DNA of 43,048 nt from Alphaproteobacteria bacterium (GTDB lineage Bacteria > Pseudomonadota > Alphaproteobacteria > Micavibrionales > UBA2020), in the NCBI GenBank assembly GCA_030682495.1, contig JAUXOC010000063.1, positions 1 to 43,048 on the forward strand. Direction: 5' to 3'. Under the pieces are notes generated by a model. That model made no database searches, had not been told where the DNA came from, and was given only the letters and a program-made list of their open reading frames with translations. Of the stretch, positions 7,688-26,958 are shown in pieces; within the stretch, counting starts at the first letter, position 1; every line of letters begins with the position of its first letter. The position numbers and the translations under genes were made by a program.

Positions 7688-7791
7688 AGATGGGGGTGTT
7701 TCATTCGAAGGAAGCGACGCAAGGCGCGGTATTTTGACTTTGCCGCCGATATTTCTCTATAATCGCGGCTGGGTTTCCAAAGGGGCGCGGC

Positions 7792-24730: not shown

Positions 24731-24739
24731 CTGTACGTT

Positions 24740-24768
24740 TTGACATAAAAAATAGGGCGGTGTATAGT
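24740..24768 (+). promoter_or_regulatory. Near-consensus sigma70-type promoter of the HExxH gene pair
   Basis: TTGACA (24740-24745), exactly 17 bases, then TATAGT (24763-24768). This is the best promoter match in the window. Transcription would start near 24775 and give a leader of about 25 bases before the ATG at 24800. It separates the pair from the dxs-chrA-tlyA operon. Confidence 0.8.
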
Positions 24769-24799: not shown

Positions 24800-25837
24800 A
24801 TGGGATCCAATCAACCGAAAATGACAGAGGCGGAAACCGCCGCCGCGCGCAAACAGGTCTTGCAGACGGTGCGTCAGACGCGTCTAGGGCGTGCGCTGCT
24901 CTCTGCGCTGGGCAAAGCGCAGGTCAAGATTGTTTTCAGCGACGACGTTGCCGCTGCGGCAGATCTTGGTGACGAAAAAAATATCTATGGTCTGTTTGAC
25001 CTGCGCAACGACACGCTTTACGTCGATGCCCGCGCGCCGCTGCATGCACAGCTGCATTTTTTTGCGCACGAAGCGCGCCATGCACTGCAGATGCAGCAGG
25101 ATAGAAAAATCAACGGTGCCAGCGAAACGGCCAGTATCCATCTGATCTCGCCGGTGACGATGCTTTATCTGACGCGCCTGCGCGAAATTGATGCGGATGT
25201 TTTTGCGGTCTGCTTTGTTGCGCAAAACGACCTGCATACAGGCAGCAAACATTTTAGCGAGATGTGCAAACGTGGCGGGCTGTTTGCAAAGACCGACTCC
25301 TACAGCCGTGCTACGCTTTACGAGGCTTTTTTAGAGAACTGGCAAGCGCAGGAAGTTCCGCGCGATATGGCGCGGTCGGCGCGCGCTGTTTTGTCCGCCT
25401 TTGTGCAAAATACCGCGCTTTTGAACGCGTATAATAATTTTGCATTGCATGTATGGGAAAAAACGGCCTTTGCCGCCGCCGTTGAGCACGCACAAAAACC
25501 CTCCAGTGATTACTTTAAAAGCTTCCGCGCGGCTGCGCTTCAAAAAGACAAAGCCGAAACGCCGCGCCAGATTTTTAACAAGAGCGCCGAAGCCTACGGC
25601 AGGTTATTGGTCAAAAGTGGCGCGCCTGATTATCTCTCCGGCATCAAGACAGACGACCTGGCAAAATTTATCAGTGAAGAAAATGCGCAGGCGCATCCGG
25701 AACATACGACGAATTACGCCTACGAGCGCGCACTGGAAAACTTTGAAATGGCGATCAAGCATTATACCGCCGCGCCTGCTAACAGTAACGCGCCGGCCGC
25801 GCCACGGCGCGCAAAAAAGGCGGGGCCGAAGCCATGA
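24800..25837 (+). CDS. HExxH putative metallopeptidase, first of pair
   Basis: Uncharacterised protein of 345 residues with a probable zinc-peptidase site. HEARHALQMQQ holds His90, Glu91 and His94, and LREIDADVFA 35 residues later offers Glu129 as third ligand, the gluzincin pattern. Before the site is a short alpha/beta stretch (VKIVFSDDV and IYGLFDLRNDTLYVD). The C-terminal half is helical, ending in a Pro/Ala/Lys tail. No signal peptide or membrane helix is seen, so it is probably cytoplasmic. It resembles what I recall as the DUF6782 group of putative metallopeptidases. The ATG at 24800 lacks a good ribosome-binding site; Met8 is an alternative. Its stop overlaps the next start by four bases. 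Confidence 0.75.
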   Translation: MGSNQPKMTEAETAAARKQVLQTVRQTRLGRALLSALGKAQVKIVFSDDVAAAADLGDEKNIYGLFDLRNDTLYVDARAPLHAQLHFFAHEARHALQMQQDRKINGASETASIHLISPVTMLYLTRLREIDADVFAVCFVAQNDLHTGSKHFSEMCKRGGLFAKTDSYSRATLYEAFLENWQAQEVPRDMARSARAVLSAFVQNTALLNAYNNFALHVWEKTAFAAAVEHAQKPSSDYFKSFRAAALQKDKAETPRQIFNKSAEAYGRLLVKSGAPDYLSGIKTDDLAKFISEENAQAHPEHTTNYAYERALENFEMAIKHYTAAPANSNAPAAPRRAKKAGPKP

Positions 25838-26958
25838 TGTCTCCGGCAGCCGGAAAAAACAGCCTCAAGGCGCGCATGCGCGAAACCGTCGCCGGTTTTT
25901 GTCATGAGCTTTTGCACGGCAAAGACGCGGTGCGCCGCGATCAGGCGATGAGCCTTCTGTACGAAACACCGGAAGGCAAGGCGCTTTTGGATATCGCGGC
26001 CGAACATGGCGTCCCTATCCGCTTTATGCGTGCGGGCAAAGTTGGCGCGCTCGGCTCCCTCTCCAAAGATCCCGATGATGCGACGGTCGGTATTTCCGTT
26101 GCCAATACGGGCAATGTGCCGCAGATGGTGCTGACGCTCTATCACGAATTGCGCCACCTGCAGCAGCAGGACGAACAGGGCGATATCCGCAAGGGCGTTT
26201 TCCAGACGCTGAAAAACCCGCGCCGCTCGCACATGCTGTCGCTGATGCAGGAAGCCGATGCCTTTACCAGCGAAGCGATGTTTGCGCTGAACCGCAATGC
26301 GGCGGGCGACAAGAAATATCTGGACAGCATGCTGTCGCGCGGTGACGACGTGGCACGCGTGTCGGCACGTTATATTAAAAAAGCGCCGGTGTCTTACGAG
26401 CAAGACCGCGATGCTTTCCGGCGCGGGCTGTTCACCAATATCATGCTCGAAGGCCTCGCCGGATATTCGGCTTCTTACTTCATCGGTTATGCCGCCGTGT
26501 TCCGCAAGGCGGCCACCAGGCAGGAATTTGCGGATTTTGTCGAAAATCTCGGTGAACTGCGCAAACCCGACAGACAGGGGCCGCTGATATCGCCCTATGG
26601 CGAGAGCTATATGGCCCAAACAGCCATGACCGCCCTCCCCACGATCTTTTTCAAAGCGCTACCGCATCCGGAACAGGAAGCGCTCAGGCTGATTGACAAA
26701 ACCGTCCGCGCCCTGCCGCAAATGACCGAAGAACAATACCAAAAAACCCGCGAAGCGGCGACGGATGCGCTACTGGCGATTTACCGCACAGACCCCGAAG
26801 ATCTCGCCTATAGCTTCGAAGGCATCACCGCGCGCGAAATCGTCACCGAAGTCGCCACCGCCCAAACCCCCAACCTGCGCACCGCCTTCGCCAAAGTCGC
26901 CACGCGCAAATTGCAGCCTGTGCGCAGCATCGCTGTGCGCGCACCCGTGCCCAGATAG
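25834..26958 (+). CDS. HExxH putative metallopeptidase, second of pair
   Basis: Uncharacterised 374-residue protein, coupled to the previous gene through ATGA. It has the same site plan: YHELRHLQQQD with His104, Glu105 and His108, then MQEADAFTSEAMFAL with Glu140 32 residues on. Otherwise it shares little obvious sequence with its neighbour, so they may be distant paralogues or two members of one complex. A helical N-terminus (HELLHGKDAVRRDQAM), strands before the site (GISVANTG) and a helical C-terminal half with EQYQKTREAATDALL are visible. No signal peptide is seen. Its 3' end is convergent with the acyl-CoA dehydrogenase gene, 18 bases away. Substrate and role are unknown. Confidence 0.75.
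   Translation: MMSPAAGKNSLKARMRETVAGFCHELLHGKDAVRRDQAMSLLYETPEGKALLDIAAEHGVPIRFMRAGKVGALGSLSKDPDDATVGISVANTGNVPQMVLTLYHELRHLQQQDEQGDIRKGVFQTLKNPRRSHMLSLMQEADAFTSEAMFALNRNAAGDKKYLDSMLSRGDDVARVSARYIKKAPVSYEQDRDAFRRGLFTNIMLEGLAGYSASYFIGYAAVFRKAATRQEFADFVENLGELRKPDRQGPLISPYGESYMAQTAMTALPTIFFKALPHPEQEALRLIDKTVRALPQMTEEQYQKTREAATDALLAIYRTDPEDLAYSFEGITAREIVTEVATAQTPNLRTAFAKVATRKLQPVRSIAVRAPVPR

Follow-up and report, generated by a model that had tools for sequence, protein, structure and literature searches.

Two adjacent genes on an alphaproteobacterial contig each encode a protein with an HExxH motif and a downstream Glu, and the question raised by this locus is whether the two constitute a new two-protein system or a local pair of related peptidases that act separately. 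We examined the genes, here called A and B, within the whole stretch of DNA in which they lie (the window, 43,048 nucleotides), together with their relatives in other genomes. The relevant features of the window are as follows.

24800-25837, + strand: gene A, 345 aa, DUF6782 putative gluzincin metallopeptidase
25834-26958, + strand: gene B, 374 aa, DUF6782 putative gluzincin metallopeptidase
25834-25837, + strand: ATGA stop/start overlap of A and B, retained in three genomes of the genus
24740-24768, + strand: sigma-70-like promoter TTGACA-17-TATAGT, score 11/12; of its two boxes only the -35 is conserved in the genus
25067-25081, + strand: HEARH of gene A, residues 90-94, putative zinc site
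25184-25186, + strand: Glu129 of gene A (EIDAD), putative third zinc ligand, 35 residues beyond the second His
26143-26157, + strand: HELRH of gene B, residues 104-108, putative zinc site
26251-26253, + strand: Glu140 of gene B (EADAF), putative third zinc ligand, 32 residues beyond the second His

The gene pair and its protein family

Both open reading frames and their four-base overlap are present as an earlier note on this DNA had described them, and in both proteins the HExxH motif and the Glu 32-35 residues further on, within an E-x-D-A motif, lie where that note had placed them. The observed occurrence of HExxH is far above the approximately 0.02 motifs expected by chance for A and B together, and the longer motif HExRHxxQ is present in A and B alike. 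We also considered HELLH at residues 24-28 of B as a second site, and reject it as a chance occurrence because it is not conserved outside the genus. The product of gene A is 38.3 kDa, and the pair is flanked by genes that we take, by recognition, to be tlyA and a minus-strand acyl-CoA dehydrogenase gene.

The promoter upstream of A is borne out, but not its ranking as the best in the window, as two further sites, at 7734 (+) and 28118 (-), also score 11/12. In both same-genus relatives the -35 box is conserved, unlike the -10 box. Together with its flank (24738-24749, TTTTGACATAAA) the -35 box is identical across the three genomes of the genus and, given that the -10 box is not conserved, this block may serve as a conserved operator in addition to being part of a promoter.

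Both proteins match the Pfam family PF20573 (DUF6782, 'putative metallopeptidase') above its curated cut-off of 27 bits, A with 29.7 bits over positions 22-211 of the 241 in the profile and B with 48.2 bits over positions 32-169. The Pfam search that had been proposed as a check thus puts both in a metallopeptidase-like family, with which they have in common the HExxH motif and the downstream Glu in E-x-D-A, and of which they are divergent members. Direct comparison of A with B by BLASTP is marginal (E 0.05), but profile-profile comparison aligns them over 132 columns with an E-value of 5e-8, so that the two are distant homologues; the remainder of the proteins had been thought clearly different, as would befit unrelated partners, and this reading is not supported. 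Searches of PHROGs and NCBIfam, and of PDB sequences with the B profile, gave no significant match. We found no mention of DUF6782 or PF20573 in the literature searched, and no recorded function or structure for the family in the sources searched. The description of the pair as an undescribed system is nonetheless too strong, because the family is already in Pfam and has 14 matches in this genome. Two other candidate roles were rejected: carriage as phage or plasmid cargo, as no B relatives were found in viral contigs or plasmids and no A relatives in phage records, and anti-phage defence, for which there was no real PADLOC match.

Conservation and position of A and B in related genomes

In a tree of the family, the A proteins (8 rows) and the B proteins (15 rows) fall into separate groups, each set apart by a supported branch (99/98 and 100/99, respectively). 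The HExRHxxQ and E-x-D-A motifs are invariant in 8/8 members of the A clade and 15/15 of the B clade, even though identity to the window proteins is as low as 24% (24-51% for A orthologues, 27-68% for B orthologues). Per site, amino acid-changing substitutions are far rarer than silent ones (0.43/2.5 for A and 0.25/1.4 for B), with silent sites near saturation. By these sequence comparisons A and B represent two old, separate DUF6782 clades in each of which the metal-site motif does not vary, and they are therefore not recent duplicates; a recent tandem duplication is ruled out by the well supported separation of the two groups in the tree.

Orthologous loci are present in the same genus in 'Micavibrio sp. 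UBA2020' and 'Rhodospirillaceae bacterium UBA8982', and further out in metagenome-assembled genomes (MAGs) named 'Alphaproteobacteria bacterium' or 'Micavibrio sp.' From these relatives we place the window genome in the order Micavibrionales, although NCBI gives the name Micavibrio a different lineage. Adjacency of A and B and the ATGA overlap are found in 3/3 genomes of the genus, in keeping with the earlier suggestion that the genes are translationally coupled. The gene order common to these three genomes is dxs - transporter - tlyA - A - B - acyl-CoA dehydrogenase - ankyrin-like - mgtE, where the genes outside DUF6782 carry names that we presume from recognition.

Outside the genus the arrangement varies. 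Genome G006, of a sister genus, has the order B-A-B in the same place, without the overlap; near tlyA there are two B genes in G005 and a single one in G013 (L091). In G003, of a sister genus, A is on the same contig as both B genes but hundreds of kilobases away, and in G008 and G011 A lies on short contigs, of which the part read contains no B. Three members of the family (G005, G013 and G014) have B but not A, and a B-type gene is present in every genome where A was seen (7/7). The answer to whether the pair is always adjacent is thus no, given the separation in G003 and the three genomes with B alone. From the two tree groups and the scattered positions of A and B in relatives, we conclude that on sequence grounds the pair consists of old paralogues that have stayed neighbours in one lineage, and is neither a fresh duplicate nor an obligate unit.

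Predicted structures and what the pair may do

AlphaFold models were built from shallow alignments (12 rows for A, 10 for B), with pLDDT 77.5 and pTM 0.80 for A, and pLDDT 80.7 and pTM 0.83 for B. Both have the zincin order of elements, with helices followed by three short strands, the HExxH helix (residues 81-105 in A, 95-115 in B), a long Glu helix (118-147 in A, 129-156 in B) and a helical C-terminus. Foldseek comparison of both models with the PDB, and of the A model with a viral structure library, gave no match at E 0.001 or better. With VIA-align, most rows for A are zinc peptidases or related zincins with Z from 6.6 to about 4, and the top rows for B are mostly zinc peptidases with Z of 5.0 or less, followed by helical bundles, values below 8 being ones that can reflect merely a common arrangement. 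Among the rows for A are gluzincins and other zincins of clan MA (PprI/IrrE, PPEP-2/3, MATCAP, aminopeptidase N, and lethal-factor-type catalytic domains), which resemble A in motif plan and secondary-structure order, but with Z at most 6.6, identity mostly 7-17% and the helical C-terminal part barely covered. Structure comparison thus weakly favours the zincin class for A and B; taken together, the motifs in the sequence and the zincin-like predicted fold agree with the gluzincin metal-site plan first proposed, and a peptidase reading of A and B is likely.

Neither A nor B has an apparent signal peptide or membrane segment (the top 19-residue hydropathy is about 1.0 for each, on hydropathy only), as had been noted from the sequence for signal peptides, and the genome, which is 99% complete, has no match to VirB4 or TssC as markers of type IV and type VI secretion. 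The simplest reading, given both observations, is that A and B act in the cytoplasm.

With gene structure, family membership, the conserved motif, clade history and the lack of export signals as observations, the explanation that we favour, with modest confidence, is that A and B are two co-expressed cytoplasmic gluzincin-type single-domain peptidases from anciently separated DUF6782 clades, each active alone on its own intracellular targets, and not an obligate machine. The two genes are probably co-transcribed, and the gene overlap in the genus probably couples their translation such that both proteins are made together. Each protein would fold its own catalytic domain, comprising N-terminal helices, a small sheet, the HExxH helix, the long glutamate helix and the helical C-terminal part. 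We infer zinc binding, catalysis and independent action, and each protein would then probably make limited cuts in its own, putative, intracellular protein targets. The pair would be one local instance within an expanded set of paralogues.

Against this reading, the ATGA overlap conserved in the genus could mean a stoichiometric complex. One form of this, which we regard as unlikely, is that A and B are an obligate heterodimer with the overlap fixing a 1:1 ratio, for which the bacterial two-gene heterosubunit M16B peptidases provide a precedent, in which the two peptidase genes of an operon are likewise homologous (PMC11266112). The retention of the overlap in all three genomes of the genus, the restriction of A to genomes with a B-type gene and the tandem of A, B and a second B in G006 are consistent with such a dimer. 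M16B enzymes, however, have an inverted HxxEH motif where A and B carry HExxH, and one of their subunits is without a zinc site, whereas A and B both have an intact metal motif, unlike the usual active/inactive pair. A and B can also occur apart, unlike the M16B two-gene operons, and it is their distance in G003 together with the occurrence of B without A that makes an obligate heterodimer unlikely; the earlier proposal of a heterodimer, or of one protein processing the other, is weakened on the same grounds.

We think it quite improbable that A and B are effectors delivered outside of the cell, for example into prey. Some observations point that way: DUF6782 domains elsewhere are built into giant proteins alongside Sel1 repeats and an acetyltransferase domain, two members match Peptidase_M91 ('Effector protein') below threshold, and the named relatives belong to Micavibrio, a genus that includes known predators (PMC3189940); the C-terminal tails of A and B, which are basic and rich in proline, are at most suggestive. 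Yet neither protein has a signal peptide, the VirB4 and TssC searches were negative, no secretion gene was recognised next to the pair, and predatory behaviour of the source organism is a supposition from relatives that are MAGs. Micavibrio admirandus has a 39-kDa lytic proteinase, and a link to A was considered and set aside, as it would be one of size only and the same paper directs attention, for M. aeruginosavorus, to an M23 protein (PMC3189940). That A and B keep the zincin fold without peptidase activity, as binding or scaffold proteins, is very unlikely since every metal-site residue is invariant in both clades, although an order-wide conserved DUF6782 protein without the first metal His suggests that the fold can be used without the metal site.

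DUF6782 in the order Micavibrionales

By genome search, DUF6782 is found above cut-off in 52/55 genomes sampled from the order, in 20/385 from the class (a count that takes in the window genome and others of the order) and in 3/398 from the phylum (the window genome among them). The window genome has 14 matches, 13 of them above cut-off, and some genomes of the order have up to about twenty paralogues. The profile of one subgroup matches 50/55 genomes of the order, nearly always in single copy, and outside of the order finds only weaker matches of the general family. The corresponding gene of the window genome is given below.

L095:5587-7580 (G000:C12:47586-49579): order-wide zinc-site-less DUF6782 gene; also in L096, L097, L098, L100, L101 and L103

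The first metal His is replaced in this protein in 50/50 genomes (by R in 32, K in 10 and others in 8), the second His is retained in only 2/50 and the Glu in 8/50, and the motif Arg and Asp are invariant (50/50). In most of the 50 genomes it is followed on the same strand by a second DUF6782-like gene, whose product lacks HExxH at the site; the sole HExxH string in that neighbour, in L166, is located elsewhere. Where the surroundings were read, the two genes are near what we presume from recognition to be heme genes and ppsR-maf-aroE-coaE. By their residues this pair look like pseudopeptidases, with intact paralogues of the A and B types as lineage-specific relatives.

The family takes several other forms. 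A DUF6782 protein of the window genome (L108:186-1157, - strand; G000:C70) has EESRH replacing HExRH and is without the first metal His. The giant proteins encoded at L115:2835-11246 (-) and L116:4403-10942 (+), of 2804 and 2180 aa, contain Sel1 repeats and one or two DUF6782 domains, with the acetyltransferase domain in L116, an effector-like make-up. In other alphaproteobacterial families five to eight DUF6782 genes are clustered (L104:5018-11052, L122:172-7628 and L105:2870-17797), and several of the copies in L105 have EExRH replacing HExRH and hydrophobic, signal-like N-termini.

A new two-protein system finds no support here, since the family is a known and expanded one and A and B can occur unpaired; the pair is real, and is one small example of the DUF6782 expansion. 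The order Micavibrionales is known for epibiotic bacterial predators. It is conceivable, although we hold it doubtful, that DUF6782 constitutes an order-specific kit for regulatory proteolysis. In it the zinc-site-less single-copy protein and its neighbour would serve as scaffold or regulator, and lineage-specific active paralogues, A and B among them, would provide a changing set of peptidases, perhaps connected with the predatory life cycle. For asking whether DUF6782 is catalytic, A and B make a convenient test case, being small and probably soluble. An unstudied Pfam family now has a clear distribution, and with it comes a testable question, namely why an order known for such predators has, in some genomes, so many DUF6782 paralogues together with a strongly conserved member that has lost the metal site.
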